Assembly: GCF_000003815.2 (NCBI RefSeq)
Contig: NC_049994.1
Location: forward strand, 5,333,670-5,397,669
Length of the DNA stretch: 64,000 nucleotides
Direction: 5' to 3'
Origin: Branchiostoma floridae
Taxonomy: Eukaryota; Chordata; Leptocardii; Amphioxiformes; Branchiostomatidae
Shown in pieces: positions 4,505-37,125 of the stretch (within the stretch, counting starts at the first letter, position 1; the number at the start of each line of letters is the position of its first letter). The translations under genes and the position numbers were made by a program. Under the pieces are notes generated by a model. It saw only the letters and a list, made by a program, of their open reading frames with translations. It was not told the DNA's origin and did no database searches.

Positions 4505-6663
4505 GGCATAGCGAACCACCCCAGTTTCCGCATTGGAACGCGACGCCGCGCGGTGCACAAATTTACTTTCAAACGTATGCTACACGTAACCGCTCGGAAA
4601 TTGCCGATAAAATTGCGCTGGCATTAATCTATGGAATATTTGCTATCAATCTGTGGTATTTGTTTTCCATAATACGTAATAATAAGTGAGCTAAAAATCG
4701 GTAAAGTCGGAGATACGGTCGAAAAAACCCTACGTTCCGCCGCCGAAAACGCGGCACCGGCCTGCGCCGCGGCCCCGCGGAAGTGCGTGTTTTTAACTCA
4801 AAACCCGCCAGACTTCCTGTTCGACTAGACTTCTGGGAATTATATCATGTGAAAGGGGAAAGATCAAGGTTCACGACGGTGATTGTGCAATCTTCATAGC
4901 TTGTGGCAAACTGAAATGGCGGGCCAGTGAAAAAATTCGTCAAAAGTAAGTGCGAAATTTTACTATTTATATAAATGTTGACAAAAATGCACAAACGAAG
5001 TAACAAATTTGGGTGCCTTGTGATTGTTAATGTGTAGTTTTTGTTTGATTTTACGCGAGTTTAGGGTGGCGGGTTTAGCGATACATTTGAGCGGATTTTC
5101 GGGGCGTGCGGAAATGGCCCGCAGTAAGGCGGGGTGGGAGGGGGGCGTTACGAGCGCACGTCTGCACGCGCCGCTATTTCATTGTATTATGGAATATTCT
5201 CCGACTAATTAGTTCTAGTGGCGTTGTTTTATTATGTGAAAACTGTTCTTTGCTTTTAGAGTATATTAGACAGACTATTTTAGGCAAATCTACAACGCCA
5301 GTTTGCAAATAAATTGTCAAGTTATGTTAGTATCGTATTTCATCCCTTTCAACGGAGTGGCAGTGCAGTGGTTATAGCTATAGGAAAATATCCCTTTGTA
5401 TGTATACACACAGAAATTGGATGCTAATTACTATGTTTTGATGTTTTTTTTAGTGGATGAAGAGGACAGCCAGAAGACATTCGCTGGGACATTGTTTACA
5501 GGCTGGATTAAAGTTTTAAACATGAACTATCATGTGGCTCCAAATGTTTTACTGAGGGATAACTGCAGTGTTGAAGAATTTTGTCAGCTTAAACTAAGAA
5601 AACAATCAATTCTTCATTCTTGTCCAATCTGGAAACAGGATTCCAATATTAATCATTCAGTGCACTTTATGACACATATCAGTTCCTGTCACTTGTCATA
5701 GACTTAACACCAGGACAATGTGATGCTTTTAGTCTAGCCAGTTAATAAGCATATCTTATTACTAATTAGTAAACATTGTTGAATCTCATTGTTAATTATT
5801 TGGTATCTAAATGCTACATTAAAAAACAAAAGTTATCCTTGCCTGAATACAAGATATATTAGTTAATACTTATGATTTGTCATCCAGCCATGATATCCAA
5901 ATGTTTATTTTGCAAAGATGCAGTTTACTGGTGACAGCTAATTAGCAGTTTTAATTAGCCTTTTTTTACATATTATTAAACGATCATTTTGCAGTTCACT
6001 CTGTTTTTGAGATCTGTTTCCATGTAGATTTAAGATGTGAGACAGCCTTTTACAGCAAAGATCACAAGTAATGTAACCTCTGACACGTGTATGCATTTAC
6101 ATATTCCAGTCATTAAGCTCATTTGCATATTTCAACCAATTAAAATCCAAAACATGCCTTCTATACTTGATGACGAAAATGAATTAAAGTGTTAGGTTTG
6201 CCTTGTCAGCTAGGAGTATTTCTATACACCTTGCAGTGTAGAAAGAGACCTTTTTTTTAAATTAATTCATTACAAATTACCTGATTAGGCCTAATTAGCA
6301 TAAAATACAACTCATTTTCTCTAAAATTTTTGTGTCTGGGCAGAACCTTGCCTGACTTCAAGCTCTTGAAAATTTGGAGACTGTAGCATGAAAATTGAGA
6401 GAGTTATAGTCAAAAATATGTGAATAATTGTGGATTTCTGGCTATTTATGGTGCCGTGGCTGACAGGACTTTTCCCATAGGGACAATACTTAAGCATCTT
6501 CCAATGAAAACACCAAATTTTTCAACTTCAAAAAAATCTATAAAATCTCAACTTTGTCGCATTGTAAAACGGAAAAAAGTATGATGACTCGAAGAATTTG
6601 ATCTATGAGACTGAACTATTTTCGATGACTTTCAGCTTATGCAAAAATTTGGTTCGCTATGCC
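4505..6663. mobile_element. Non-autonomous DNA transposon, 14-bp TIRs, 2.16 kb
   Basis: The ends are GGCATAGCGAACCA at 4505 and its exact complement TGGTTCGCTATGCC ending at 6663. TATGTATA precedes the element and recurs just after it (6667-6674), while the right arm has this site once and no insert. An 8-9 bp duplication would suit hAT- or P-type elements, but 2-3 extra bases at the right edge make it imprecise. The interior is a G+C-rich left part and an A+T-rich right part. A short open stretch at 5396-5701 could be a relic of a transposase; I do not recognise it. Superfamily is unassigned. Confidence 0.7.
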
Positions 6664-16699: not shown

Positions 16700-16928
16700 T
16701 AGGCGGAAATATAAATAGTTTTTCCCGCAAATTATTTGCATCGTACTGCTCGAGCAAGAAGTAATTATTTTTTTCTCCCTCTCCGAAAGACAACGTCAGC
16801 TCGCCACAAGCAGCTTCGGTAGACTTCGGCAGACTTCGGCCATCCTCGTCAATCCCCGCCTACCACCATCACCGACGAGAGCCGAGTTCGTCAGTCTGCA
16901 GCAAACCAAACACTTTTTAACGTAGTCT
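16700..16928 (+). promoter_or_regulatory. Core promoter and 5'UTR of the 1,410-aa gene
   Basis: A TATAAATA box is at 16710-16717 and an octamer-type ATTTGCAT at 16734-16741. A pyrimidine-rich leader with repeated GACTTCGGC words then runs to the ATG at 16929. Because the coding region is one exon and starts within this leader, splicing is not needed for expression. Confidence 0.55.
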
Positions 16929-19900
16929 ATGCATCAATTGTTAAGTTGTTTTAAAAAGGTGCAAAAATCAGAAGAAAAAATTAATACTGTAGAAGATAAG
17001 TTGGATGTTAGTGCTAGTAGTGCTAACAGTAGTGCTGGGATAGGTTCCACAGTAAGCGTTGCGCAAAAGGAGCAAACATCAGAAGAGAAAATGAATACTG
17101 TGGAAGATAAGTTAGAAGTTAGTGCTAGTAGTGCTAGCAGTAGTGCCGGGCTAGGTCCCACACTAAGCGTTGCGCCCCCCTCCCCTGCGCAGTCGAACAC
17201 AGATGTATCAAAATATGCAGAGGAACTGATCAAAGACCCAACAGTCCTCCGCAGTGCGACCAGCGTCAGCAAGATGTTCAAAGGTGGCTCCAACAACAAC
17301 GTCACAACCATTTTTGCCAAAAACCTTATCGAATCCGCCACTTCAGACCTACTGATTGAAATTGAATCTTGCTCGTCTATGTCCAGCGGCAGCTGTGAGT
17401 CAGGTATGGACATGATGGATTCTGTCCTTGACATAACCGGACTCATCCACGCCGAGAAAAACCGAATCAAGGGCGAGTGCTCACGAGAAGACCTCGGTCT
17501 CCTCTCGCAGATCACGAAGTTCAAGCCGATCTCTCGTGAAACGACGGAGACTCACCAGAGGGAGAGCACACAAGAGCTCGTGCACAGGCGCGACTCCCAG
17601 GGTGCAACAACAGAGCATCTCCACAAAAGTCAGTCGATAACTACGATGGCCGATGTGAGACAAGGGAAGATCCGGACAGCATCTGGAAAGACGCTGCGGA
17701 TCAGATGCTCCAAGACGAACGAAATCCTCCGCCAGAAGATGATCTACAACGCCAGACAGGAGTTGGCGCCTCCGAAAAAGAAGAAGTTCAAAACTATCGC
17801 TAAGGCGATCGCCTGGACCATGAGAAACAGATTGGCGTTCATGAAGGGCGATGCCCCCAAAACTAAGGAACAGGAGGAAGAGGAGAAGATACAGAAGCTG
17901 GCAAAGATCTTCACCACAAACGTCATCAAAGGCGCAGTCAAGAAGTATGAGTTGGAAGAAAGGCAGGAGGCTATAAGGAAAGAAAGACGCCGTCGAGCCA
18001 ACCGGAGAAAATTCACAACCACCGCAAACTTCTTCGGGGAGTTAGAGGACTTTCCCGACCCTAGGCCGTGGGTTAAGAAGTTTGATAAGAACCACAACCC
18101 GAACAACAAGGCGCTGGCATACTGGGTCCGAGAGATCCAAAGGCAGGTGATGGTGCACGAGTTAGGCCCGCCCCCACCTGGCCTGGACCTATCCTGCAGC
18201 AACCTCTCCCTCAGGCACTCCAAACACTCCGATCTCAAGATGGCGTGTCATGCGGAGACCGAAGAGGAACCAACCATCTTCAGCGGGCGAAAGAACTCCA
18301 GTGTCTACTTCGCAGGCACTCCTCAAGTCCGCGAAGAGGATAAGCTCAGCATGGCTGTTGGAGGGGCACCGGAGGCCCTGCACTTCACCTCTCAGTCCAG
18401 TGCCGTGTCGCAGAAGAGCACTGTGACCAAATACGGGAAAGGCAAGAAGAAAGACACGGCTTCTCTGGAGACCAGTCAGGCGGTGAGGAAGACAACACTT
18501 GCGTTCACCCCTCCGCCTCCTCCTCCCCCACTGCCAGGCTGTCTCCCAGGAGGCAGTGCGCCAGCACAGGCCGCTCCTGTTGTATACACGACACAGACGG
18601 CAGAGGTGGGACAGCGCGCCACCGTCAGTTCCCGAGAGCAAGATGGTACCGAGGTGTCCACTGAGACTGCTACAATGGCAACCATGATGGAAGCCCAGTT
18701 CGCTGCACCGCCGGCAGCTCCCCCTCTTCCTCCCCCTGACTACTATCTGTTGGGCGGTGACGAGTCGGACGACGAGATGCCGAAGGAACAGGCACCACCG
18801 CCGGAGGCTGCCAGGCCGTATGTCCCGCCGAACTACCTGGGTCGGTTTCAGAGCCAGGGCTTCAGGCACGTCGAGTTCAACCCCTCCCCGCGAGGCAGCG
18901 CTAGTCCTGTTGGCAGGGACCGCACAAGCCAGGGAGTCCCAGACACGGCCCTTACAACAGCCTTGCGTGATGTTGGAGAGAGCAGGGACGCAACACATGG
19001 CATGATGCAACCTCGAAGGGACAGTCTTGCCTTCCGACTGCAGTCCCAGGCGACGCAGCTGAAGCACTCTACCACTGTGAGGAGGAAGACGTCTACAGGG
19101 GAGACGGAAGACACTGCCGAGGCATCGCACATGGTCGCCACAGTTCAGGCCGACAGAGTCCCATCACCGCCGCCCCTGCCGTCCTTTGGCCTGGGTTTAT
19201 TATCTGCACACCCAATGTCCATGTCTCCTTTATCATCGGTGACGCTGGGCCAAGCATTGCATGATGCAATGGGAAGAAGGGATCACGTGATGCCCGGGCA
19301 CATGCAGTCCAGCTCACCTGGAAACGATAGTTTGTCCTTCCGGCTTCAGTCCCAGGCAACCAACTTGAAACACTCTACCACTGTGAGGAGGAAGACGTCT
19401 ACAGGGGAGACTGAGGACACGGCAGAAGCATCGCACATGGTCGCGACTGTCCAGGCTGAGCGTATCCCGACTCCACCGCCGATGCCGGCTTTCGGCCTTG
19501 GTGCACATGCCCAGATAGCGCCACCGGCTGGACTAGCACTTCCCAGTGCTGCGCCAACTATGGGTCTGCTGTCACACAGCTCTGCCGCACCTGCCTTGCC
19601 CATGCCACTCTTGTCTCAAGGCCATGGACAAGGAGGAGGTACCTTCATGCGAAGTACTACAGCTTCCAACAAAATGACGCACAAGACTAAGGTCACGAAG
19701 GGTGATGAAACAGTAGAGAATGTGGCAGAGGCCAGCGAAACCGTGGGTACAATGGAGGTTGGCCATATCCCTGAACCGCCACCACTCCCGACCCGAGAGC
19801 AGCTGAGGCGCCCAAGTCTTCCAGGAGCCACACCACACTTCATGATGCATGGGGCAGGATTCGGACGAGTCCCCTCGCCCCCGGCTTTACCACCTATGGA

Positions 19901-21161
19901 GTTACTGTTGTCTGGAATCTCAGGTGGATTCGGACAAGTCCCCTTGCCCCCGGCTTTGCCACCTATGGAGCTACTAATGGCCGGAATCTCAGGTGGATTC
20001 GGACGAGTCCCCTCGCCCCCGGCTTTGCCACCTATGGAGCTACTGATGGCCGGAATCTCAGGTGGATTCGGGCGGCCTCAGCAAAACATGGCGGTACAGA
20101 TGGCAGGACCATCGGCTCTGTCAGCCCCTCAGTCCTCACTCTTGTCTCAAGGCCATGGACAAGGAGGAGGTACCTTCATGCGGAGCACTACCGCCTCCAA
20201 CAAAATGACGCACAAGACTAAGGTCACGAAGGGTGATGAAACGGTAGAAAATGTGGCAGAGGCCAGCGAAACCGTTGGTACAATGGAGGTTGGCCATATC
20301 CCTGAACCGCCACCACTCCCGACCACAGAGCAGCTGAGGCGCCCGAGTCTTCCACAAGCCACACCACAGCTTAACATGGCGCTACAAATGGCAGGACCTT
20401 CGGCTCTAGCAGCCCCTCAGAACCCGGCTTCTTTGATGTCTCCAGGCCATGGACAAGGCGGTGGTACCTTTATGAGGAGCACTACAGCTTCAAACAAAAT
20501 GACGCACAAGACTAAGGTCACGAAGGGTGATGAAACAGTAGAAAATGTGGCAGAGGCCAGCGAAACCGTGGGTACAATGGAGGTTGGCATTATCCCTGAA
20601 CCGCCACCACTCCCGACCACAGAGCAGCTGAGGCGCCCAAGTCTTCCAGGAGCCACGCCACACTTCATGATGCATGGGGCAGGATTCGGACGAGTCCCCT
20701 CGCCCCCGACTTTGCCACCAATAGAGCTACTGATGGCCGGAATATCAGATATGTCCGGACGGGTTCCCTCTCCTCCTACGCTGCCGCCGATGGAGTTTCT
20801 GATGTCCGAAATCAGATATACATCTAGACCCAATCCTCCTGCTTTACCAACAATGGAGTTTCTGATGTCCGGAATCTCAGGATCGCCGCGGCCACTTTTG
20901 GATCTGGTGGGATCCGGTCCCATGCAGCCTGAGAAGAGGAAAAAGGGCTCGACGCGCCAAGGGCACCAGGGGAAGCTTTCACTAGCCGATAGTAAAGCAG
21001 AAGATGAAGAACCAAGCACTTCTAAGAAATCTAGCGGCAGGCTCACCCCCTCTAAGCTAGTCGGCAAGATCAAAGGTAGCTTCACGAGGGTCAAAAGTTC
21101 GATTAAATCGAGGATATCCGGAGAAGAGAGCGACTCAAGCTTCTACTCGGATGACGACTGA
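16929..21161 (+). CDS. 1,410-aa proline-rich modular repeat protein, family unrecognised
   Basis: This is a single open exon. Residues 12-85 hold two 37-residue acidic/Ser repeats. Residues about 280-400 are strongly basic and charged, starting PPKKKKFKTIAKAIAW, with a likely helical E/K/R-rich stretch. From about 500 onward come repeated modules made of a Ser/Thr/Lys segment, an acidic TAEAS or VAEASETV core and a PPPLP-type proline run. Two units start near 19021 and 19330, three near 19618, 20148 and 20443, with V-P-S-P-P-A-L-P-P-M-E spacers between. Seven R-R-x-S/T sites recur, including LRRPSLP three times. The C-terminus is basic then acidic (SDDD end). No signal peptide or membrane helix is seen. 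An intracellular scaffold for SH3/WW/EVH1-type partners is possible; that is inference. Confidence 0.85.
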   Translation: MHQLLSCFKKVQKSEEKINTVEDKLDVSASSANSSAGIGSTVSVAQKEQTSEEKMNTVEDKLEVSASSASSSAGLGPTLSVAPPSPAQSNTDVSKYAEELIKDPTVLRSATSVSKMFKGGSNNNVTTIFAKNLIESATSDLLIEIESCSSMSSGSCESGMDMMDSVLDITGLIHAEKNRIKGECSREDLGLLSQITKFKPISRETTETHQRESTQELVHRRDSQGATTEHLHKSQSITTMADVRQGKIRTASGKTLRIRCSKTNEILRQKMIYNARQELAPPKKKKFKTIAKAIAWTMRNRLAFMKGDAPKTKEQEEEEKIQKLAKIFTTNVIKGAVKKYELEERQEAIRKERRRRANRRKFTTTANFFGELEDFPDPRPWVKKFDKNHNPNNKALAYWVREIQRQVMVHELGPPPPGLDLSCSNLSLRHSKHSDLKMACHAETEEEPTIFSGRKNSSVYFAGTPQVREEDKLSMAVGGAPEALHFTSQSSAVSQKSTVTKYGKGKKKDTASLETSQAVRKTTLAFTPPPPPPPLPGCLPGGSAPAQAAPVVYTTQTAEVGQRATVSSREQDGTEVSTETATMATMMEAQFAAPPAAPPLPPPDYYLLGGDESDDEMPKEQAPPPEAARPYVPPNYLGRFQSQGFRHVEFNPSPRGSASPVGRDRTSQGVPDTALTTALRDVGESRDATHGMMQPRRDSLAFRLQSQATQLKHSTTVRRKTSTGETEDTAEASHMVATVQADRVPSPPPLPSFGLGLLSAHPMSMSPLSSVTLGQALHDAMGRRDHVMPGHMQSSSPGNDSLSFRLQSQATNLKHSTTVRRKTSTGETEDTAEASHMVATVQAERIPTPPPMPAFGLGAHAQIAPPAGLALPSAAPTMGLLSHSSAAPALPMPLLSQGHGQGGGTFMRSTTASNKMTHKTKVTKGDETVENVAEASETVGTMEVGHIPEPPPLPTREQLRRPSLPGATPHFMMHGAGFGRVPSPPALPPMELLLSGISGGFGQVPLPPALPPMELLMAGISGGFGRVPSPPALPPMELLMAGISGGFGRPQQNMAVQMAGPSALSAPQSSLLSQGHGQGGGTFMRSTTASNKMTHKTKVTKGDETVENVAEASETVGTMEVGHIPEPPPLPTTEQLRRPSLPQATPQLNMALQMAGPSALAAPQNPASLMSPGHGQGGGTFMRSTTASNKMTHKTKVTKGDETVENVAEASETVGTMEVGIIPEPPPLPTTEQLRRPSLPGATPHFMMHGAGFGRVPSPPTLPPIELLMAGISDMSGRVPSPPTLPPMEFLMSEIRYTSRPNPPALPTMEFLMSGISGSPRPLLDLVGSGPMQPEKRKKGSTRQGHQGKLSLADSKAEDEEPSTSKKSSGRLTPSKLVGKIKGSFTRVKSSIKSRISGEESDSSFYSDDD

Positions 21162-21259: not shown

Positions 21260-23169
21260 TGATGAAAAAGGAAAATGAAAGAATCAACTGCACCTCAGGC
21301 TAGAAAGACCTTATTACAACTGCGCAGAGAGGGGACGCAATTCAAGCGTTTTCTGTAAGAGTCAAATAACAATAAGTTGCCAGGTGTCCATAAATATACA
21401 TGTACGATGGCAATATTTAGTGTTGTAAAGCTATGTGCGCATTGGTCACACATGCTGTCAATACGTATACGTGTTGGTAACGTCACAGTGCGAATTCCCT
21501 ATATCGGCTTTGAAAGGAAAGTTAATGTAAACCGTTGTATGTGGCTGACCAAAATTATACTAATGTTAACGTTTTTGCAACAGCGTCAATGTCAATACAC
21601 AACTTAAAATGGATTTTAACGCTTCGTACCTTCCTTGTAAAATCCTTGAGTCAACTACATCACGCCTGGCGATCATGTGTGTGTATATATACTTGTTTAA
21701 AATGTACAAATATATCATGTGTGTCTTTGTAAATTGTAAAAAACAGAAAGATGTTTCATCCGGAATAAATCTTCACGCCAATTTGCGCTTGCTTGTCTTA
21801 CTGTTGATTTGGTTACTTTCGTTGGTAAGTTCTAAAAGTCTCAGAATTAACGTGATGTTTACATGTAAGCGTGTGAGTGTGTTTGTGCGTGTGAATGTGT
21901 GTCTGTATTCTAGAGAGTGCAGAGACGAAAATCTATTCATACATAGGATTCGACTACGAGTTAGGCCATGTTGATTTGGGTGACATCCGAGCGTAATTTC
22001 CGGCCGTTTCCAGAATAAAAAAAGGTTTCAACCATACTTAAAATCGTACAAAACAGCTTCAGAATAAGCAAATGTATGCGGTGGATTGCAAAAATAAATA
22101 TCGGAAAACGTATGCAAATGTCATAGAATATTACAAGGTAAAAGAAGATGTGAAAGAACATAAAATGAAGAAGAAATTGTTCGGTATACTATATTCTGTG
22201 TGTTCAGTCATTTGTTCAACCTTCCTGGCCATTTTGATTTCATAATGGGGTAGCATTTTTTTGTGAAACTCTTTTTATTCGCACGCTCGCATCAGTTTTG
22301 GATTCACAGAGGATGTCATCCATAGGAACAAATTAAAATTGCCTTAGTTATTTCCCTTTCCCTGAGGATGTTGTTTGTCACGTCCATGAAATATTCACTG
22401 AGGCTATATTTATCTCCATGAAAATGCATTTTAGGGCAGCGAATGTTAAGGAACCCCGCGGTAGAAATCGGATGGTACCCAGGTTAGTTCTGATATATCT
22501 TGTACGTAAAGGATGCTGACTATATACCCTACCAAAATCATATACTGGCCACTGAAAGTGTTTGACGTTGTAACGTATATTCAGAAAACAATCAGTCAAC
22601 ACAAGAACTCGTTGGACTGAATAATTGCGGAACATATGCTGTGACGTTCGGTGCTCTATTCAGAATAATTCCAAACGAACTATAACAACGCCAACATTCG
22701 ACTTCACTGAAAGATCTTCTTCAAACGATCATGCAATCAGCCAACACATGGATTAGCTTGGATATTATCCGGAAATTAGTTCGCTCTGACGTTAATTATA
22801 CCCTATATACAGTCGCATACTAGTATCTCTCTGATATTCATTATACACTATATACTGTCGCTTCTGTGCAGTTATAGCAGAAGCGAACATAGGAGCTAAC
22901 TACTATCACGATGGTACCCAGGCTACACATGGATCCGTTGGATTGATTAACTAGTACTGCAGGACATGCATGCGTTCTGTGTTCTATTCAGAATAATTCC
23001 AAACGAACTATAACAAACAACGCTATCATTCGAATTCGCTCAAACATCAACACGCACAAAATTATAGCAACCCAAACCTGTGTGTTGAGTGCGAGGAATT
23101 AGGTTGCTGTACTCTAACGCACTGGTAGAGTTAGAGTCTTCAGAAGGTTGAGAGAAGTACATTGACACA
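21260..23169. other. Intergenic, repeats only
   Basis: A dispersed repeat occupies about 21985-22345 (same family as 3720-3990). A 65-bp block with AATTCCAAACGAACTATAAC is duplicated at 22651-22715 and 22978-23044. A minisatellite-like segment at 22790-22930 (CTATATACAGTCGC words) is related to 41065-41232. No gene is supported, and no clear TATA box was found before the next ATG. Confidence 0.5.
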
Positions 23170-26100
23170 ATGGACATTGTTGAGAGAATCCGTGAGTCCG
23201 TCAACAAGAGTCGGGAGTCCATCGACGGTAGTCGGGAGACCATCGGAAGTAATCGGGAGTCCATCGGGAGTAATCGGGAGACGCGAGAGCCCGGAAGGCG
23301 GGAATCTGTCGGCGGAAAGCGGGAATCTGTCGGCGGCGGGAGGCGGGAATCTGTCGGTGGCGGGAGGCGGGAATCTGTCGGCGGGAGGCGGGAATCTGTC
23401 GGCGGGAGGCGGGAATCTCTCGGCGGGAGGAGGGAATCTCTCGGCGGGAGGAGGGAATCTCTCGGCGGGAGGAGGGAATCTCTCGGCGGGAGGAGGGAAT
23501 CTAACGCCGGGAGACAACAGCCCATGAGCCGGCAACGACGACAATCTATACAGCTCGCGCAAGATGAAGTTGCTCATGAGCTTCTTCGTCTGAGAACGCG
23601 TGTGTGGCATGGTCACCGACGCAAAACACAGGCGTTAATTCGAGAGGTAAGTCCGGTAAAATGAGTACCGCTAGTTCACCTTTATTCGCTGGGTAACCTA
23701 TAAAACGATTGTCTGAAAAAGGCAGGACATTTAAGGTGGTATCTCACTGCACTTGCGTCTAGCTTGCGTCACTGTGGGGTTTGAAAAATAATCGACGAAT
23801 TTCAGAAATACAGAACGAATTTTCGTATTTTGTCGTCTTCTAAGTCATACTGTTACTATTACTCAATATCTAAGTAATAAAAAAAAATCGGAGAAAATAA
23901 CAAAACAGTGACGCAGTGAACGAACCCCGCAGTGACACAAGCTTGACGCAAGTGCAGTGAGATACCACCTTGAGCAATATCAAGTCGACGGAAGGTGGTT
24001 TCAAGTTGCAATATCTTCAAAATAGTGCAATTTAAAACTACCATCCGTCGAATTGATATCCCCAAATGTCCTGCTTTAAAACAAACCTAATATAGGTTGC
24101 CGACGGATAAAGGTGACCCAGCGTTGCAGAAACGCTTCCTGTAACGCTAGTTCACCTTTATCCGCTGGGTAACCTATATCCACTGCATTACGGGATATCA
24201 AGTAGAAGGACGGGGGTCTCAAATTGCAATTTTTTTAAAATTTTGCATTTTGAAACCACCTTCCATCGACTTGATATCCCTGCACGCCCTGTGATACATA
24301 CAGCGGATACAGGTTACCCCCCGGATAAAGGTGAACTAGCGTTAGAGAGTTAGATAATCGACGAAGAGTTAGCAGATGATTCGCATTATTTATCTATGTA
24401 TCTGGGTTGATTTTTGACCTCCCCTACCAAGATTTAAGAGTTATACAGCCACAGGATACTGTAAATGTATTAAAGTTCGCGGGGATTTAATTTCGCGGTA
24501 GCGGGAAAAAGGACTTTTCGCGGTGGATTTAAGTTCGCGGTAACACCATAGACTGCAATCTAATATCATTATAGAATAATAATCGCGGTGGTTATGAAGT
24601 GGTCACCGCGAAAACCGCGAACATTAATCCACCGCGAACATTTCTGCATTAGCAGTATTCCATTTTCAAGAAAATTAGCCAAATAATATTCTTTGTGACG
24701 TAAACCATCAGCTACAGTTTCTTGAGAAGGTAGAATTATGGCTCTACAAAATTTTAAGTTAAAGATGTAGCCAGCATCTAACGATATTTTATATTTGTAC
24801 TGTTGCAGGAGACGCCATCTCCAGTGAAAGAAGTCCAAAGCGTAAGTTATGGCTTATTAGCCTGGAATCCAGCCGTGTTGTGCTTTAGTCGCTCCCAAGA
24901 GGTACGCTTCCTGCCAACACTGTGTTGGCAGGAAGCAGAGCGACCAAAACACAACGCTGGATTCCAGGCTAATGACGGGATACAATGTGGTCAAATATCC
25001 GTCCTTTCCTAGATCTACCATAGAGTAGAATTCGTTACCATCCAGTATGCGTTTTACAGTTGGAGAATCCTGATTAGATAGCTTTAAAGAACATTCGCAG
25101 TACTAGTTAGATGTACAAAGGTTGGGTGTGACAAGTCGCTCAGTGTAATACGAGGGGCGTTCAATAAGTAATAACTCTGACTCGTAGCTCTGGACACCGT
25201 TTTTGTAGGACACCCCAGGTCGGTCCTCCAACAGATGCCTCATCAATGGCAGAATAGGGACGACCCGGTCTGGGAGCTGTTCCCACAGACTTCCGGCCAT
25301 GTTTGAATTCAGGATGCCAGCGTTTTACAAGGTCATATGATGGGGCATCATCACCATAAGTTTCTTTCATTTCATCAAAAGTCTCCTTTGGTGTGCGTCC
25401 TTTCAAATACAAAAACCGGATCACTGCGCGACGCTCAACTGGCTACATTTCACACCTGGTCCATTTCACACCTAACTCAATTTAAACACCAGTAAATCAG
25501 AAACCACAATTAGTTCAGAGCTGTTTTTTGCAACATAAACTATAGAGATATGATTCATTACACATGCAAAATTTCATCTAGATTAGACAACTAGAAAAGG
25601 GTCAGAGTCATTACTTCTTGAACGCCCCTCGTATAACCAGCTGCTGCATCGTATGCTGGCGAAACTGGTGCGTTACGCCGAAGGGCATGAAGTTATAACG
25701 ACTAGATAGATACAGACAGAAAAAGGATACATGTAAAGAAATGTAGTAGAATCATTCTAAAACATTCTAAATTGCGGTTCAGAGGATATTTCAGAATCTT
25801 GCAAATAGTTGACATTTTATCCACAAACATTCAATCCAAAAGAATATAATCTACAATCTTGCTGATTTTTGTTTTGCAGATGATAGAAAAGTCTGAAAAA
25901 TATACATCTTCAATCTTGTTGATCGTTGTTTTGCAGATGGTAGAAAAGTTTGCCATGGCTGCGCGTGTAGTGCGCAGACTCTGCCAGGTGGCCATGTGCA
26001 TGAAGAAGTACGCAGAGGACCATCTTGGCAAAGTAAGACAACAGTCTTCTTGTCCACAAACTGGAGAAAACTTAGAAATGTTCTTCACAGTACATCTATG

Positions 26101-26426: not shown

Positions 26427-29400
26427 TCACAATGAATTTAGAACCTCTGGATGGATTGTAACGATATTTGGTGTGTGGGTAGGTGTTTAGAAAACAAAGT
26501 AGTTCAAGGTTGATTTTGGGTCCCCTGGTGTGTGACCTGGGTACTGTAGCAGAACTTCGATTTTTTGTAAGTTTTGACCTGAACATGCTGGCAGATAGCT
26601 TGTAACTGACAAAAAAATGGTATGTAGACTTGGGCTCCCTAGCGGTTTGCTCTGGAACTGCAGAGACAATTTTGGACTTAATTTGCATACTTAATGAGGA
26701 AAATCTATGTTTTTCCTATAGGTGTTCGAGGGACTGTCTAAGCCCCAGCGCTCACCCCTGAAGGAACAGGGAGGCGTTTTCTCATTTGATGCTACCTTCT
26801 TCAAGACAGACTTTGAGGTAGGAGCTTCAGCCATACACTGATGCGTGTGACTAATTGTTTTACTCTGTGGCAATTTTGTAGGTGTATCAATGGGCTTGCA
26901 CATGCATGTATCAGCTTGCGAATTATAACAAGATTGCAGTTAAAAAAACAACCGTGGCGACGTGCGGGGTTGAGGAATACCCCTGTCACATTATCCCACG
27001 ATCTTCGGGCGTATCGATGGGAGATCGGTCATATTTATGATCGACCGAGGATTGCCTGTATTTTTACCTGTCCCTATCACACATAAGCCATACTTTGTAC
27101 CTTAACGGCCTTCTAGAATTGTTGTGCAATCGTCGTCCGATTGATTTTCGCCAAATGTGACAGGGGTAGAAGATAAATGGGGAAGAGTGACGGTAACGAC
27201 TGAGTCTTTAGTAATACGTAGTCGACGTTGTCTATGATTATGTTCCCATGATTTGTCATTTTATGAAATTGATGGACCAGCAAATGACGATTGGTTGAAA
27301 GAACGCATAAATGAATGACGAATAAATGAATATTTCCCTATGATGTAGTGTCCAACGTAATAGAGTAATATATACAAACACTACAAGCGTAAACTAGACG
27401 TCTAGCTGGTCCATTAATTTCATAAAATGAAAAACGTCTACGTACTTGAGTACAAGCCTGGCGTGTTCCTAAAATTCTATCTTTGAGTAGACCAGGGTGT
27501 AGGGCCGAGTTGATCAGAGAGTTTAAGTTTGGGCCGAGTTGACTGAGCCGAGTTGGTAAAATGGCCGACTCGTCTTGATTCCTTTTCCTCAGCACCTTTT
27601 CCCAGACTCGGCCAAGAAGGTAGCAGAGAAACTCCCGTACGAGAGAACACCGGCGGACCTCAGGCTGATGGTGGCTGTACTGCGCAGTCTCAGTAGCTTC
27701 AGGAAGTACCCAAGAAACATTCAGGATATGCTCTCTAGAGTTGTGAGATACCAGAGGTATGGAATTCTACTTTATCCTAATGTTTGAAGAATGGGCATGG
27801 TGAATGTACATTCGACATATAGCTTTATGTCACAATTTCAAGACTTTATATTCGTGCACAAAATAAAGCGCTCACCAACAAGCTTTCGATCAGTCCTCTG
27901 GTCCTTCTCAAGTAGAAATGACCCAACACCTAAGTCACACATCCGGAAGAGTGGCGTCAGCAAAGGGTCAAAGGCGCTTGGCAGTCGGTATCGGCCCCCG
28001 TCTCGGTTGAGGGAAGGTTGGTGGGCTCTGATGTAAATGGCATAACGCTTTTATCTCTTTTGACATACACTAGTCCAGGTGTTCACCACAAATTCTAGCT
28101 TCTGTTTGCTTATTGCTTTCCGCAGACAGGTAGTCTGCTAACCATACAATCGGCCGAGCTGTTTATACGTGAAGATATACACGTGTAATCCCCACAACTA
28201 TTGTCTGTGCTTCTTGTGTAGTTTGGTGTCTTGTTATATCATACTTTTCGTTCCCTAAAGCTGCCCAGTCGGGCCCCGGTTTGGAAATGTGACGCCGGCC
28301 CGTCGAGAATGGTTAACAGGCTACCGGAGATAGGATGGGATATTTAGATCTGACTGGTCCCCTTTTTTTCTAGTTTGGGGATGAACCGAGTGGTGATTAA
28401 GAAGGGCCATCCCGGCACGGCGTTCTACATGGTGTTCTCAGGACGGGTGGGCGTGGTCACCACAGACGACCCGGACGAGCTGATGCAACGGGCCAGCATG
28501 GTGGTGCTCAGGAAGGGCGACATTTTTGGGGTAGGTGTAGATACAGTCAAACCTGATTGATAGGATTTTCATCAAGCAGTGACTACTTTTTAAAGGTAAA
28601 CACAACGTACCTCCAAATTTTCGATGGCTATCAGTCCATCTTGTTCGCGAAGTGACTCGGTTCTCGCGAGAGCTAGGTCGAGACTTGAGTGAATCTTCTG
28701 CCCCTCAACCTGCCTCCTTGCGGAGTAGGGGTAAGTAGGACTTGGGTAGCTCCCAGCCATCATTGCGGTTCAGCTATTATCCACGCAAGTCTCGACCTAG
28801 TTCTCACAACTCTCGCGAGAACTGGGTCACTCCGTGATCAAGATGGTTTGGTAGCCATCGAAAATTTGGAGGTACGTGTGTTTACCTTTAAAAAGTAGTC
28901 ACTGGTTGCTGAAAAGCCTATTAACTGTGTACATACGTGAATAATGAATCTCTTCAACGACAGTCAAACCTGCAATTAGCGGCCACCTTTGCATAGCCAT
29001 CACCTGGCCATTGCGGTCACTTTTTGTCATTAAGAAAGCGGTCACCTGTCTAACGCGGCCACGGCCACACAATTTCCGTTCCCGTGGATACAGAAACACT
29101 GCATATTGCGGCCATACAGCGGCCGCATGCCACCCTGAGCCGAGCTTTAAATCGTAGTTTGCGAGAATTTGGCGTTCCCGACAGGTAGTGGTCTGGTAGC
29201 GTGTCTTGAACGTTATAGCTCGTATGCTATAACGTAGCTGGTGTGTTACGCCGAACGGCGGTTATACCGGCTATATAGATACAGATACAGATACAGTATG
29301 TGAAGGATGCTTCTTTTTGGCAACAGTGGACAGTCGCAGTTCTCTTTAGACTACACGGTAGCGTGCATGTATACGTGTTGCCACCCATTAACTACCCTGG

Positions 29401-32400
29401 GAAACCAAACTCAAAGAGGCGGCGCAAACGAGAGTTACCGATCCCCGCCTGTCTCACGCGCGCCCGCAACTATACCCCCGCCCACTACCAGCTGGTCCCA
29501 CTACGCCGGTCCCCAACTATCGCTTGCTTCTCCTTGAGAGGCAAGCGATAGTTGAGGCCAGCTGGATCGTCTGGCGGGCGGGTGTTGGGAAAGCGGGTGT
29601 TCCTGGAGCGCGTGTGGCGGGGATCGGTAAACCTTGCGCGCGGCTCTCAGGAGTCTGCGTTCTCCCAGGGTACCAATTGACCACCACCACCACCCTCCAC
29701 CCCCAGGAGATGGCTATGATCACAGGAGCCTCGCGGAACGCCACCGTGCAGACCCTGGAGCAGACAGAACTGGTGGTGGTGGACAGCTACAACCTGCGGG
29801 ACAGTGACATGCATGCCCTCCTCAAGCGGGACTTCAAGGCCAAATACGACTTTCTCAGGTTGGTACGACCAAGATACACCCGTGAAGAAGGAGTTTCACG
29901 ATCCCAAGTATTCATGCGCGGCGAAAATTTCATTTGTGGGTACTATGTCGGAGGTTAAGGCCACGAAAGTCTGGAAAATGTCCAGACTATGCATGGTGTA
30001 CAAAATGACCAATAAACTGGTGGACGTACACCAGCTCATAAACGAACTAGAAAAAGTCATACCAGAGTCACCAACCTAGGATTGATGTGTTCAAAAATTC
30101 GTATTTTCGAAAATGTGAACTATCGTAGATTGGAATATGTTATCACCAAGCACAGTAGGGGCATCTTCTTTGGATAGTTTTAAATAACACTTGCAGATAG
30201 ATGTGCAAAAGTTAGGTGTGACAGGTCGTTCAGTGTAATATAACCAGCTGCTGCCGCGCCGCGTGCCTGCGAAGCTGGTGTGTTACGTCGAAGGGCGGTT
30301 ATACCGGCTATATAGATATAGATACAGATACAGATACAGAAACATGTAACCAAGAGATGCAGAACTAGCTATAGTCAGCATTTCCCTGAGGAAGGTGTCA
30401 GAGGGTCTGCCGAAACGTTAGCAGATTTGGAATTGGTTATGTACCACAAGGCCAGGAAATACAAATGCCTAATACAAATGTATCAATAACGTACCCATAC
30501 AAAGTGCACTGTGATAGGACAATCAGTAAGATCCTCAAACAATCCTAATAGTCAAATGAAGACACTTGTTAGGCCCCTGTATTTAATGCTTAGCGTTTCT
30601 AAATGTGATCTTCTTGTTTGCGCACAGAAAACTCGATCTGTTCTCTCCGTGGGGAGACGAGCCTATGGAGAAGTTAGCCTCGCTATCTAAAACGGAGACG
30701 ATGCCGCATGGTAACGTGGTGGTCACCGACATGGGAGAGGAGCCCATCATAGTCTTCATTACTAAGGTTTTTGCATCTTACTTTTGTCCAATGGCTGTTG
30801 TTGTCAAAGCGAGAATAAGGTAGTTAAGACAAATGGTTCGTGATTGGCCAACGACAACCACCCAATCAGGCTGCTTGCTGTCGCAATCACGAAATAGTAA
30901 TGTACAGCATTGAAATGAGAAACCACATCTAACTGCACCTCACGGAACCATGTGACCCATATAGATATGTGTAAACGGCTTGTGCCATGTTGCGAAACGA
31001 CTTGTGCCACGAGGCGAAACGACTTGTAAGCTTTAAGGCGAAACGACTTGTAATCGAAAAGTACCATTGTACACAATACATTTTCAGCTTTCTACCATAC
31101 ATAAAGGTGGGTCAAAAGGAATCTTTGCTGGTTGCGAATACACCCGATATTTATTTTATTCATATACGCGTCGTTTTATATGAATGAAATACTGAGCCTT
31201 TTGTGGCACTTACCCACAGGGTCACTGTGATGTCATAAAACTAGTCGACATCTCCCAAGCGACGATGGACATGGAAGACGGAGGATCAAATATGTCCGAG
31301 AGATTTTCCTCACACCTGTCAGCAAAAACACTGTCATCCCATCATCACATCTTACCGCCTATCACACAAGAGACTGTTTCTGACCAACACTTGGGTAGTT
31401 CGGTGGAGAATGTTGTCGGTGAGAAGAAAGAAGAGGTTCATCGCGCGAGGAGCAAAAGTGTTGATGTTAGGGTGAGGTTTACCGATCCAAGGAGAACAAT
31501 AGAGCCAAAACAACTCCTGTCGTTCAGTGACATCCCCATGCCTGCTGAAATCGCGAAAATCGAAAGGTATATATGAAATACGTTGATGAAAGTTATATCA
31601 GAGCTCGGCGGTACTGAAACGCCGACTAGTAATCCATGATTGTAGTGCAGCCATAAACCTGTCTAGGCTATAGCATTGGCTAAGATTCGATATAGGTTAG
31701 ACATCCAGGTAATAAGATACGCCAAAAAGCAGGAAATCAAGCAACTGGGTATGGTTTTGGAAACGGTCAGGCGTTTCGGATAGCATCCACTATCTTTCGT
31801 CAGTGACACTGAAGTGATCTTGGAGAAACTGGTCTTTTATACCCTATCTATGAATGCAAAATAACTGAAGACAATTTTGAATGTCCAATAGAAAACAAGG
31901 TAAAGTCAAGCTTTGATTCCACTGGGAAACAAAGGTAAGCCAAAGCTAGCTAAGACAAGTTTGATGCAAACGTTTGGCTGTTTCCAAAATCATATCCAGT
32001 TGCTTGAGTAACTGCTTTATGGCGTATATATGAAATATTATCCTTCCAAATCTCCAAGCAGATCCACTGACCCAAACAATATTCAGTAACGACAGTTGTT
32101 TGCCCATGGATACTGTCCTGACACCGAGGATCTGCTTGGAGATTACATCATCTATGCATTCTCAGTATACGTCACCTTCCAGAAGTAAGACGTTAGAAAT
32201 AGGTCAAAGGTCATTAAAAGTTGGTACCAGCCCCCGTCTTATGCCTAGGTCCCATTTTCCAACCCGGGGCCCGGCCGGGAAGCTTTTGGAGACGGAAAAT
32301 ATAATAAGAAAGGCAACACAACACACAGAAGGTGAAAGAAAATAATCAGGATCATGTGTATATTCATGGGTAAACACTTTTCACCTTCTATGCTTTTTTC

Positions 32401-35400
32401 TATACACTTTTTGGACCCGAAAGCTAGGACCCGCTTTGGAAATGTGAGCGTAGCATACTTTGGTGAGTCCTATTTCTTGCGTTTGAACAAAGTTTAATCC
32501 TTTATCACAATGTTATCTATGACTCTAATGCTAATATAGCATCACGTTAGTGTTAGGGTACCGATATCCGCCTTCTCTGGTGTTTCAGTGGTGATCATAT
32601 AGACGAGCGTTCCCGCGCCCGAGCAAAAAAGAAGTACACAGGGCGTATCAGCCACTGCGCCCAGCGGGTCGGCACCTTTATGACTCTGGGTAAACTTGGA
32701 CCTGGGAAAGCTTTTGTAAGTATTCAAAAGAGAAATTAATTCCGTCCTAGATCTCCGTAAATACTCTTGTTGGTAATTACTCATATAGTAAAGTTCTTGT
32801 GAACACAACCAGGGTAATACTCAAATCTAACATTTCCATGTCTTTCCCGTCAGAGACTTGGGGGGGATATACAATCTGAGTCATGTTTGGGACGGCATTC
32901 TTGCTGCTGCAGCGCCACCTACATCGGCTATAAGTAGCAGTGAGAAGCAGATCCAGCCATTCTAACCCTGATGATGGTGTCTGACAGACATCGAAACGTT
33001 GGATCAAGGAGGTTCCTTGGTTCAATGTATTACGTACAACTATACAGAGTCTATATAGTATGAAAATTCCGTTTTGATGCAAAAGACCAAAACCTGATCG
33101 TTCGTACTCTTTTTCGGAATGACTAACGCTTTTCCCCGGGGGCACGCCGTATTTCTCCATCTACAGGGATTGGCCCATGTGTCCAAGGCCCCCATCCCGC
33201 CACACCTGAGCCTGGTGAGCCGGGGCGCCAGCATCCTGCATTTCACACTGCGGGACTTCAGGGCCGTGTCTGAGGGACAACCGGCTTTGCAGGGACTCCA
33301 CTCGGAAATGGTGGAAGTACGTATTTTAGGGACCAGACTTGGCTCTTCAGTCATGACTGTCTGAATCATTTTTTTTTGCAGTAAGGCCACACCAATTTAA
33401 TTTCTTGGTTCACGGATTTTTTCATAAAAAATATGGAGCGAGAGGGCGAAATAAAAATAAAAATAAAAATTGTAAAATGGTTGGGGTAAAGGTAACGACT
33501 AATCCAAAACATAAAGAAAAAAGTTTTCAGCTTGAAAAAAGTACAAAAACACATTTATTGTACAGTAACAGCACCTGTACCAACACTTTAAGGAGCTTAT
33601 AATATAAAGGCCAATTTGCTACACCAGAAAGTTGGTGAATGGTTTCATTAATGGTGAAAATTTGCTGAGTAGTGATTTTTATTTTTATTTTGTTTTCCAA
33701 AAAATAGGAGCGAGCGAATCCGTGAACCAAGAAATTAAATCGGTGTGGCCTAAGGCCATGATTTATTTGATTATATGGATGACATCTTCAGGGATCCCCA
33801 AAAACTAATGCGAGCGTGCAAAGAAGAAAGTTTGACCCCCCTGTTTGCCTTCATTATGTGATCTAAGTGGTTAGGAAGGTTGAACCATGAACTGAACACA
33901 CAGAATAGTAGTATAGTATTAACTGAAAGATAGATTCTTCATTTTTGTTCTTTCACATCTTCTTTAACCTTGAAAAATTCTATGAAATTAGTATACGTTT
34001 TCCTGTATTTGTTTTTGCAACACTCGGCATACATTGGCTTATTACCTCCATGAAATGTCATGGAATGGAGGTTATATTTTCTGTTATGTGTCTCTGTCTG
34101 TGTAGATAATTACTCAAGAACGGCTGGATGGATTGGTTTAATACTTGTTGTGTTGGTGGGGTGTGATGAAAGCTCGAATTCATGAGATTTTGGGAGCCGT
34201 ATTTGTCGTTATAATCGATGTAATAATATCAGAAATCACCCCTATATTTGAGATATATTGGTACAGGCATCGTGCTTTATGTGTTTGTTAATGGGCTTAG
34301 CTCAAAGCAGATGGTGAGGTGACAGCTGTTTGGGGAACCCCGAGTTTTTAAATATGATAATTAGTTTTATTTATGTCTGCTTAGGATATCATGGAGATGT
34401 GAAGCGTAAGTATAATTGTAAGAAGTTGAGGTACATTTAACGATAATGCTTAACAGGTATGGATGTCTCACTGTTATGTGTCTCTGTCTGTGTAGATGAT
34501 TACTCAAGAACGGCTGGATGGATTGGTTTAATACTTGTTGTGTTGGTGGGGTGTGAGGAAAGCTCGAATCGATGAGATTTGGGGAGCCGTATGTGTCGTT
34601 ATAATCGATGTAATAATATCAGAAATCACCCCTATATTTGAGATATATTGGTACAGGCATCGTGCTTTACGTGTTTGTTAATGGGCTTAGCTCCAAGCAG
34701 ATGGTGAGGTGACAGCTGTTTGGGGAACCCCAAGTTTTTTAAATATGATAATTAGTTTTATTTATGTCTGCTTAGGATATCATGGAGATGTGAAGCGTAA
34801 GTATAATTGTAAGAAGTTGAGGTACATTTAACGATAATGCTTAACAAGTATGGATGTCTCACTGTTATGTGTCTCTGTCTGTGTAGATGATTACTCAAGA
34901 ACGGCTGGATGGATTGGTTTCATACTTGTTGTGTTGGTGGGGTGTTATGAAAGCTCGAATCGATGAGATTTTGTGAGCCGTATTTGTCGTTATAATCGAT
35001 GTAATAATATCAGAAATCACCCCTATATTTGAGATATATTGGTACAGGCATCGTGCTTTATGTGTTTGTTAATGGGCTTAGCTCAAAGCAGATGGTGAGG
35101 TGACAGCTGTTTGGGGAACCCCGAGTTTTTTTAATATGATAATTAGTTTTATTTATGTCTGCTTAGGATATCATGGAGATGTGAAGCGTAAGTATAATTG
35201 TAAGAAGTTGAGGTACATTTAACGATAATGCTTAACAGGTATGGATGTCTCACATACTGTACTGCTGATTTGAGTGACATGGTGATTAAAATGCCATTAG
35301 GTCCTCTCATCTGGGTTGGGTGTTAGAAGTTTTATGGGCGATACAGATGTTCTGATTTTGTTAAGATAAGGGACAGTTGTTAGTTGTCTCTTTCGTAGCC

Positions 35401-37125
35401 AATGGTACTTGTTTTTTAGCAGACGGGGTTGGCGCCAAGTATTCATCTTACAGTTGGTGTAGGGCTGTCAGAGGAAAGTGTGCATCTCGTTTTTGTACCG
35501 TGTGAACAGCTGATGTTATGACATATTGGTGGAAAATCAAATCACCATCTGACTAAAGTTGGCCACATCCCTTCTTCTTTCTGAGTTTCCCAACTTCCTC
35601 CCACCACACAGCTCTGAGGCACATAGTCGAACCTCAATAATGCTGACAACCTTAGACATTTTAAATGCCAAACATCAAGCTTAAGGAACACCACGCTACC
35701 ATATGCCGTTGACCTCTTAAACGCACATTACACAATTAAGTGTCACATTTTGATAATTACTAATCAGATGGACATCCTCTGTGTCATTTAATAAATACAC
35801 CACTACTTTCCCATAACATTTATATTATATAACCATTACTCTCAAATACAACCGACTATAAACATACATACCATCCACAAAAAAGCAATAAATATTTCAT
35901 GGAGGTATGAGGTCCCCGAACTCTAGTTTTGTAGTTACTTTTTATGATTTACAGAATGGTTGAAACTTTTTATTTTATTTTTGGAAACGGTCGAAAATTG
36001 ATGCACGCGGATGTCATCTATATAATCAAATCAACATGGCCTACTTGCGATTAGACATTACTATTGTTATCAAAAATATTTAGGTTCCACCAGACAATGT
36101 GCTATGTGAAAAGTTCTTCCAAGAGAGCCAATGGGAGAGCTACAAGAGACGTGTGGTGGAACAAACCATGGTGGACATTCACCGGCCAAAGGACGGACTG
36201 GGCCTGCGCAACTATGACGTCATTGATACCTACCCCATGTCTGAAGACATACTTGTCATCGGTAGGTGTCTGTTTTTCTTATACACGCAGCATATACCTG
36301 GAAGTGTATACTTTTTGTTCGTTCGTTTGTTCATACCCTTGTGGCACATAGGGTAGTCAGTTTTCTTGTGTTTCAGTAGCAGGGTATATTTTTTACAGTG
36401 AGAGGTTGCTAGCTCCTTTAAGTTAAAATGCATGAGGCAACTTCATGAACCCCCATTTTACAAATGTACATCTCTTCCAAAAGACCGGAGGTGCTCTACC
36501 CTGGGCTGCAATTTAAGGCTGCTACCATTGGAGCTACAGGGACATCCCTGTCTTAACACTTTTTATAAATCTAGATGTGTAAAGTACTGATGGTGAATGC
36601 TTGTCATACATCTAACAATAAAAAAAATTACGTACAGAACTAAATCTTTGTATGAAGTTTTGCTGGCCGTGAGTTGACCTATAAGCCTAGCAAATAAGAA
36701 GTGGGAACTTTTGCGTTACTGTACTACATGAATGCAATGTCTGATGGACTGTCCTTACAAAGAACAACACACTTACAAAGACAATTTTTTTCAAAACTTA
36801 TATTTCAAATCCCAATATACGTTTTTTGCTCACTCTGTATATGTCCTAATACATGTATAAAATCTGTTCCACAGATATAGGGAGCAGTACACTGTCATTC
36901 CTGCAAGGGTGGACAGGGGGCGCAGTTCTACCACGTCATCAGCAGACACCTGCATCACGGGCGGCACAACAAAGGCTGGGAAGCGAGTACATTGCTCGAC
37001 CCATCTTCGCTAAAGACAACAGGGGTAGCCTGAGACTGATAGATATGATCGAGGACCGTACGCGGAATCCAAGTCGGAACCAGTACGGTCTGAAGTGCCA
37101 CCATCTTCCACAAGACAGTAGGTGA
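23170..37125 (+). CDS. CNBD2: CNBD2-like cyclic-nucleotide-binding protein, 13 exons, 788 aa
   Basis: Exons: 23170-23646, 24809-24841, 25937-26032, 26722-26817, 27593-27756, 28374-28530, 29707-29858, 30628-30766, 31220-31566, 32589-32715, 33167-33316, 36084-36261, 36875-37125. All junctions are AG/GT and the joined frame stays open. Exon 1 (1-159) is a repeat rich in RRES. Residues about 235-392 form a cyclic-nucleotide-binding domain. Its phosphate-binding cassette reads FGEMAMITGASRNATV across exons 6-7, with the canonical Glu (342) and Arg (351). A second, split domain follows: first half about 392-450, an insert of about 130 residues, second half about 583-625, lacking the cassette Glu and Arg. 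Vertebrate CNBD2 is a cAMP-binding protein of spermatogenic cells. CNBD2 orthology is likely but CNBD1 or a related paralog cannot be excluded. Confidence 0.8.
23292..23515 (+). repeat. 21-bp coding minisatellite in exon 1 (R-R-E-S array)
   Basis: Ten copies of a 7-residue unit (GGRRESV or GGRRESL; one copy KRES, two with an extra Gly codon) preserve frame. The last four full copies are nearly identical, a sign of recent homogenisation. Degenerate units (SRES, NRES, SRET) precede it from about 23208. The other frames of this array are also open on both strands, which is a composition effect. Confidence 0.85.
23669..24125. mobile_element. MITE A, copy 1, interrupted by MITE B
   Basis: Ends GCTAGTTCACCTTTATTCGC and the complementary GGATAAAGGTGACCCAGCG bound it. 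The uninterrupted family member is at 24142-24344. It lies in intron 1 of the CNBD2-like gene. Confidence 0.6.
23733..23971. mobile_element. MITE B, copy 1 (nested)
   Basis: Both ends read AAGGTGGTATCTCACTGCAC inward, followed by CCCGCAGTG-type subterminal repeats; total 239 bp. It sits inside MITE A copy 1. A second complete copy is at 37285-37514 and a half copy near 838-900. Confidence 0.7.
24142..24344. mobile_element. MITE A, copy 2 (intact)
   Basis: TAACGCTAGTTCACCTTTAT at the left and its complement GATAAAGGTGAACTAGCGTTA at the right. The interior GATATCAAG and CTTGATATC words form a second inverted pair. It is 203 bp long and non-coding. Confidence 0.7.
24458..24656. mobile_element. 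CGCGGT-armed MITE, copy 2
   Basis: Same family as 11158-11352 and 43245-43399. It lies in intron 1, 150 bp before exon 2 of the CNBD2-like gene. Confidence 0.7.
24858..24971. repeat. Foldback repeat with TAGCCTGGAATCCAGC ends
   Basis: A nearly perfect 114-bp palindrome (arms about 52 bp) begins 17 bases after the exon 2 donor. A related, less perfect foldback is at 40452-40557 and a short relative near 56420-56455. Confidence 0.75.
25151..25631 (-). mobile_element. Internally deleted mariner-type transposon
   Basis: 31-bp TIRs starting CGAGGGGCGTTCAA with three mismatches are flanked by TA (25149-25150, 25632-25633). On the minus strand 25161-25424 encodes a remnant of the transposase N-terminal helix-turn-helix region: a K-G-R-T-P-K-E segment, then APSYDLVKRW and a G-R-P motif, as in the mariner/SETMAR family. 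The catalytic D,D region is absent. A second copy of the host repeat at 30190-30338 shows the empty TA site. Confidence 0.85.
25632..25725 (+). repeat. SINE-like repeat tail, copy 1
   Basis: The GTGTTACGCCGAAGGGCGGT-like core and a tail of GATACAGATACAG units are shared with 29216-29303 and 30190-30338. The upstream part (25120-25148) is on the other side of the inserted mariner element. Confidence 0.5.
26359..26424 (+). repeat. (GT)n microsatellite
   Basis: An almost pure GT dinucleotide run of about 33 units lies in intron 3. It creates a spurious Thr-His repeat frame on the minus strand. Confidence 0.9.
28578..28903. repeat. Foldback element, about 110-bp arms
   Basis: AGTGACTACTTTTTAAAGGT at the left end is inverted at the right end (complement ending AGTAGTCACT), and the arms continue through CCTCCAAATTTTCGATGGC and TCTCGCGAGA words. 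It is 326 bp in intron 6, non-coding. Confidence 0.75.
29216..29303 (+). repeat. SINE-like repeat tail, copy 2
   Basis: Truncated relative of 30190-30338, ending in the same AGATACAGATACAG tail. Confidence 0.5.
29385..29680. repeat. G+C-rich foldback just before exon 7
   Basis: The outer arms share TTACCGATCCCCGCC, with its complement near 29617-29631. The inner arms pair CCAGCTGG and CTATCGCTTGC with GCAAGCGATAG around 29518-29552. The hairpin ends about 25 bases before the exon 7 acceptor AG (29705-29706). Confidence 0.65.
30190..30338 (+). repeat. SINE-like repeat, uninterrupted copy
   Basis: This copy has an intact CAGTGTAATATAACCAGC where copy 1 contains the mariner insertion. It ends in a GATACA-unit tail and lies in intron 7. 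Confidence 0.55.
31712..32038. mobile_element. MITE C, complete copy
   Basis: TATACGCCAAAAAGC-like ends with long subterminal inverted repeats (GGTTTTGGAAACGGTC and its diverged complement) bound 327 bp. A partial copy is at 1400-1545 within the left arm insertion. It is intronic. Confidence 0.65.
33384..33751. mobile_element. MITE D with AGGCCACACC ends and TA duplication
   Basis: About 34-bp TIRs beginning AGGCCACACCAATTTAATTT and flanking TA on both sides. The interior has (AAAAAT)n-type runs and GGAGCGAG words. It lies in intron 11. Confidence 0.75.
34043..35907. mobile_element. 1.87-kb element with TACCTCCATGAAAT ends
   Basis: Fourteen-bp inverted ends (TACCTCCATGAAAT and ATTTCATGGAGGTA) bound a non-coding element, two-thirds of which is a tandem array. 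It lies in intron 11, the largest intron of the gene, between exon 11 and exon 12. Confidence 0.6.
34081..35252 (+). repeat. Three-copy 390-bp tandem array
   Basis: Units start at 34081, 34471 and 34862 with CTGTTATGTGTCTCTGTCTG. They are about 97 percent alike by eye, differing mostly by single substitutions. No open frame runs through the units. Confidence 0.9.

Follow-up and report, generated by a model that had tools for sequence, protein, structure and literature searches.

Short basic kinase sites repeated in tandem are known from the KSP repeats of neurofilaments and the SPKK repeats of sea-urchin sperm histones, arrays that act as charge switches. The locus described here would work like these tandem phosphorylated tails; motifs and kinases are different, and no homology is claimed. 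The substrate motif of PKA is R-R-x-S followed by a hydrophobic residue. PKA regulatory subunits (RI/RII) carry an RRxS-like motif N-terminal to the cAMP-binding domain, as does the protein predicted at our locus. They differ from it in that no RIIa domain is reported here, one cyclic-nucleotide-binding (CNB) domain is modelled, and fifteen units are found instead of one inhibitor site. To our knowledge, the sites of the CFTR R domain are not tandem copies of one unit. The R domain resembles our locus in the way it may work, namely through numerous PKA sites in a disordered region; the number of consensus sites cited in the part of the source covered here is 15 (PMC8240754). Again, no homology is claimed.

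A CNB domain with FGE and the pocket Arg, and a long N-terminal segment ahead of it, are the features shared with CRIS/CNBD2. We take CRIS to be mouse CNBD2. According to the parts of its description covered here, mouse CRIS, expressed in the precursor cells of sperm, binds cAMP via such a pocket, and Branchiostoma is listed among the animals having CRIS (PMC3854790). The difference is a tandem kinase-site array, which is not mentioned in those parts of the CRIS paper; in its main text, the strings "N-termin" and "phosphorylation site" have 0 occurrences each (PMC3854790). A literature search for amphioxus and CNBD2 returned no paper, and searches for tandem PKA-site arrays gave nothing relevant, as judged by titles and the first parts of abstracts. 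The name CNBD2 as used below rests on the preliminary description of this DNA, on domain layout, and on the listing of Branchiostoma in PMC3854790.

Results and Discussion

A 21-bp array probably encoding R-E-[S/T] units

The window, i.e., the whole stretch of Branchiostoma floridae DNA analyzed here, comprises 64,000 nucleotides (C16:5333670-5397669, + strand), and the genome searched for related sequences comprises 513,431,437 bases on 431 contigs. Positions refer to the window unless a contig is named. The features of the locus are collected in Table 1.

Table 1. Features of the array and of the predicted CNBD2-like gene (positions within the window).
Feature	Position	Strand	Residues or length	Remarks
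Predicted first coding exon of the CNBD2-like gene	23170..23646	+	159 codons	phase-0 end
Five older units, xRE[S/T]xxx	23188..23295	+	residues 7-42	
Ten younger units, [R/K]RES[V/L/N]	23296..23511	+	residues 43-114	
RRQS, then Ile	23536..23547	+	residues 123-126	3' of the array
Helix after the array	23530..23643	+	residues 121-158	predicted (AlphaFold2)
Predicted exon 2	24809..24841	+	33 nt	ETPSPVKEVQS; phase 0; acceptor TTGCAG, donor GTAAGT
Exon MVEKFAMAARVVRRLCQVAMCMKKYAEDHLGK	25937..26032	+		phase 0; 84% identical in paralog, splice phase matching
Exon with start of CNB region	27593..27756	+		74% identical in paralog; aligns with 1o7f
Exon with first half of CNB domain	28374..28530	+		PF00027; 96% identical in paralog
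Exon completing the pocket FGEMAMITGASRNATV	29707..29858	+		56% identical in paralog
Later exon VPPDNVLCEKFFQESQWESYKRR...	36084..36261	+		86% identical in paralog

The DNA array is real. Tandem Repeats Finder (TRF) detects a 21-bp array of 10.3 copies with 90% matches at 23292-23513, and weaker 21-bp arrays at 23194-23265 and 23211-23280 directly before it. In the frame of the ATG at 23170, the product of the predicted exon 1 reads MDIVERIRESVNKSRESIDGSRETIGSNRESIGSNRETREPGRRESVGGKRESVGG...RRESLGG...RRESNAGRQQPMSRQRRQSIQ... and contains nine RRES, one KRES, one RRQS, and one RRKT, among them all ten R/K-R-E-S units and the RRQS that the preliminary description had reported; the five older units at residues 7-42 are absent from that description. 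The motif [RK]Rx[ST] thus occurs 12 times in exon 1, whereas 20,000 residue shuffles averaged 1.25 occurrences and never exceeded 7. Such shuffles take no account of the fact that a repeat multiplies a single motif, and conservation between units therefore carries more weight. A DNA search of the genome, which skips simple repeats, found the exact exon 1 once.

The whole array is composed of 15 R-E-[S/T] units of about 7 residues, five older ones (IRESVNK, SRESIDG, SRETIGS, NRESIGS, and NRETREP) followed by ten younger ones, with RRQSI after them. Arg or Lys at P-3 is found in 10 of 10 younger and 0 of 5 older units, V, I, or L at +1 in 13 of the 15 array units, and a potentially phosphorylatable Ser or Thr in all 15. 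The R-R-x-S-hydrophobic motif is present in eight RRES units with V or L next and in RRQSI; the remaining younger units are one KRESV and the last array unit, RRESN. Units 12-14 are identical, and part of the array is therefore young, which fits the recent homogenisation of a minisatellite proposed earlier.

Reading frame of the array

The open frame around exon 1 spans 23152-23664. Its ATG sits in the octamer CACAATGG, the sole copy on either strand of the window (one on the plus strand, none on the minus strand), and its donor reads GAG|GTAAGT, with AGGTAAGT at three plus-strand and no minus-strand places in the window. Among the plus-strand frames across the array, only that of exon 1 has an ATG, and the other two stop at 23527 and 23504. 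On the minus strand, two frames, of 177 and 164 aa, also stay open across the array; since the unit length is divisible by three, several frames are open on both strands.

When the units are compared in order, the nine bases of the core show 9 changes along 15 units, none of which alters R, E, or the S/T class. Among 42 nine-base windows (2 strands times 21 offsets), the core is the only one without a class change. In this test, which was chosen after the pattern had been seen, a null model hitting the same columns with random replacement bases equalled the core result in 12, 3, and 0 of 20,000 trials at kappa 1, 2, and 4, respectively. Counts over the whole unit do not separate the frames, with synonymous to nonsynonymous changes of 8:21 in the exon 1 frame versus 8:18 in one minus-strand frame. 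Because of this, and because the core was chosen post hoc, support for the frame is good, but not conclusive: the array is probably coding.

A CNB domain in the same gene model

Exon 1, exon 2, and the exon at 25937 all have phase-0 ends, and exon 1 and the five exons up to 29858 join in phase to a 359-residue N-terminal part. The agreement of phases and splice sites suggests that exon 1 is spliced to the CNBD2-like gene; to this extent, as a gene model, the assignment made in the preliminary description holds. A splice and codon scan of 29858-36084 yielded no trusted exon list. A 391-bp tandem repeat of three copies with 97% matches lies at 34081-35253, between the exons at 29707 and 36084.

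The earlier report of a cAMP-binding-type domain in the same predicted protein is borne out by the model. A single CNB domain is found in the 359-aa model, i.e., in the N-terminal part encoded by exons up to 29858 only, where PF00027 matches with E 9.8e-15 and 54.7 bits against a cut-off of 27.5. Phe-Gly-Glu and the Arg of the phosphate-binding cassette are present in FGEMAMITGASRNATV, corresponding to mouse F277/G278/E279 and R288 in the covered part of the CRIS paper (PMC3854790), and the predicted cAMP-pocket residues are intact. The pocket Glu is residue 310 in the gene model and residue 279 in mouse CRIS (PMC3854790, in part), and one would therefore expect the shared exons to be preceded by a long N-terminal segment. 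The best match of the CNB region to a solved structure is the cAMP-dependent Rap1 exchange factor 1o7f (E 4.8e-16); among the best 60 of 67 matches, Rap exchange factors are followed by PKG and, lower down, by PKA regulatory chains. The RIIa dimerization/docking domain (PF02197) was found at E 0.1 neither in the 359-aa model nor in nine separate open stretches.

A tandem paralog

When the genome was searched with the CNB region, eight matches were obtained, three to this gene, three to a second gene, and two on other contigs. The second gene, a tandem paralog, lies about 47 kb upstream and has the same orientation; a region of 29.8 kb there was compared. It matches the exon at 25937, the next three, and that at 36084 with matching splice boundaries, including the phase-0 boundaries of the 25937 exon, and thereby confirms the later exons. 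In the same 29.8 kb, no credible counterpart was found of the exon 1 array (best E 3.9; last 44 residues E 0.8) or of the 33-nt exon 2 (best E 1.3). Lacking a counterpart in the paralog, the array is probably copy-specific or fast-evolving.

As a candidate for the first exon of the paralog, we considered an open frame at C16:5308939 with RRET, RRSS, and RRGS. Of the 612 stop-to-stop segments of the 29.8 kb, no other has at least three [RK]Rx[ST] motifs (in the window, there are two among 1,300, exon 1 being one of them). Among the plus-strand ATG frames listed for the 11 kb that precede the shared exons of the paralog, it is the longest, and it could end in phase 0 at CAG|GTTTGG. Aligned with exon 1, it scores no better than shuffles, 257 of 500 of which reach the score, and three motifs are reached by 1,077 of 20,000 shuffles. 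The donor is weak and failed the donor filter, whose four listed rows are all simple-repeat frames. GC3 of this frame is 0.35. We rejected it as a counterpart and keep it as a lead only.

Within the paralog region G000:C16:5313032-5321947 (L028, L029), the pocket exon occurs in one full and two partial copies, and one of the two partial copies has an in-frame stop. A 1411-aa open frame with internal repeats of 69 bp and 294 bp and seven [RK]Rx[ST] motifs lies at 16926-21161 of the window. L029 carries parts of this frame again beyond the paralog, there on the opposite strand, and the duplication may therefore cover more than one gene.

Similar arrays elsewhere in the genome

When exon 1 was searched against the genome at the protein level, 107 candidates were scored and at least 15 matches kept, including exon 1 itself; as only the best candidates were scored, array counts are lower bounds. 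Reading all six frames, several [RK]Rx[ST] motifs were found in two of the 14 non-self loci, L004 (8) and L009 (6), and the idea that the array is unique in the genome was consequently rejected. With the looser motif R-x-[S/T]-hydrophobic, a third locus, L015, scores 10, due to RPTL in a WRPTLWRP repeat. The L004 bases are read by an overlapping 393-aa frame as ...AQGESLQKGQEKLS..., an AQGESLQKGQEK repeat, and judged from this sequence, RRES is probably not the coding frame of L004. Arrays of the RRE[S/T] type can thus arise in a frame that is probably unused. Around the units of L009, there is no clear gene. L017 (G000:C2:33004500-33014400) has a 393-aa frame with AQGESLQKGQEKLS repeats on the minus strand at 4670-5848, where another frame reads RRESTKGSRKTVGP.

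A putative kinase-regulated tail

AlphaFold2, run on exon 1 alone as a single sequence, predicts a helix at residues 3-37, where most of the older units lie, and no structure at residues 38-120, which include all ten younger units. In ten-residue blocks, pLDDT is 84, 86, 74, and 56 over residues 1-40, 50-54 over 41-110, 66 over 111-120, and 91-95 over 121-150. With 39 K+R and 23 D+E, exon 1 has a net charge of about +16. Sixteen phosphates, on the 15 units and RRQS, would turn this into about -16, by arithmetic that ignores His.

Our preferred reading, to which we give a probability of roughly 0.4, is that exon 1 encodes a basic, largely disordered N-terminal tail of a CNBD2/CRIS-like protein, with a core under selection, which most likely serves as a multisite kinase substrate with a charge switch. 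The 21-bp unit would expand by slippage while selection keeps its R-E-[S/T]-hydrophobic core. Active PKA or another basophilic kinase would phosphorylate up to 16 serines and threonines, and the resulting swing in charge may alter the binding partners of the tail; separately, cAMP would be bound by the CNB domain that this chain also carries. Regulation of the tail by a kinase is plausible, with the multisite charge switch as the simplest mechanism. Against the tail speak the older units, which are predicted to be helical and not disordered, and the paralog with its lack of an array counterpart.

As to the kinase, R-x-[S/T]-hydrophobic, common to old and new units, is also the motif of Aurora, and Glu at P-1 is not an ideal context for PKA. 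The R-R-x-S-hydrophobic motif favours PKA for the younger units; in the older units, the single arginine at P-2 would suit Aurora as well. The preliminary description had called the array one of PKA-type sites. We retain tandem consensus sites for a basophilic kinase, which may be PKA or another. A more elaborate scheme, a two-input cAMP sensor in which PKA phosphorylates the slippage-prone array, cAMP binds the CNB domain, and differences in repeat number between individuals or species tune the threshold of a sperm or cilium response, appears quite unlikely to us. A further point against the tail reading is that PKA-type phosphorylation was unchanged in CRIS-deficient sperm according to the part of the source covered here, though this is a result for mouse and not for this animal (PMC3854790).

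Alternative explanations

A coding minisatellite with little specific function is a serious competitor, though not the reading we would choose. Exon 1 would then encode a slippage-tolerant N-terminus, and the kinase motif would have come along incidentally with whichever unit chanced to expand. The base composition agrees with this (GC 0.61 in exon 1 and 0.68 in the array, compared to 0.39 and 0.41 in the flanks), as do at least 14 other repeat-like matches in the genome, two of which are of the RRE[S/T] type, one probably in an unused frame, and the lack of an array counterpart in a paralog whose later exons are 56-96% identical. It is harder to reconcile with the R-E-[S/T] core, which stayed intact through nine base changes, with variation at other positions of the unit. 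Unlikely, in our view, is an array outside the CNBD2-like protein, by way of another first exon or a start at ATG 25937 or 25880. Translation could start at 25937, since in both paralogs this exon begins with an ATG right after the acceptor. A 57-bp direct repeat at 25843-25949 (88% matches) duplicates the acceptor and first codons of this exon and supplies the extra ATG at 25880 in the same frame. Candidate phase-0 first-exon ATG frames for the CNB exons fill 16 rows, two of which are exon 1; others include 21609-21824 with a GTAAGT donor and the ATG 25880 frame running through the 25937 exon. Exon 2, too, has no paralog counterpart that we could see. Nevertheless, the ATG and donor contexts of exon 1 are strong and its phases match, and in mouse CRIS, about 139 residues would precede the corresponding point, provided that indels are few. 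On its sequence, the array is likely part of the CNBD2-like protein.

Within such a protein, the array might sequester the PKA catalytic subunit as a decoy or tethered competitor, like a regulatory subunit or PKI, and the preliminary description had pointed to the likeness with the inhibitor segment of PKA regulatory subunits. Ten [RK]RES units in one modelled chain with a cAMP domain would suit this role. We consider it very unlikely, because every unit could be phosphorylated, so that turnover as a substrate is expected, and because the dimerization domain of regulatory subunits is not reported; along this line, the 359-aa model has one CNB domain, and PKA regulatory chains rank below Rap exchange factors and PKG among the best 60 of 67 matches to solved structures. 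The decoy proposal is thus not upheld. Hardly credible is a folding of the repeats into a small beta-roll, as in the heptads of grass ice-binding protein. Such a fold is hinted at by PF21300 (E 0.0026 for exon 1 alone, 0.06 for the whole model, both below the Pfam cut-off) and by a weak match to PDB 3ult (E 0.0039), yet periodic Gly-rich sequence invites chance matches, and the single-sequence AlphaFold2 prediction shows no strands, with pLDDT of about 50-54 over the younger units.

Implications

Should the array be a coding minisatellite of little function, it would still be a useful example of one with a kept motif and a drifting copy number. If, in accordance with the tail reading, the array is expressed and receives phosphates, a cAMP-binding protein would carry a natural tandem array of kinase substrates. 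Repeat number would then be a simple and measurable evolutionary dial, and a protein of the CRIS/CNBD2 type would be tied directly to kinase signalling.
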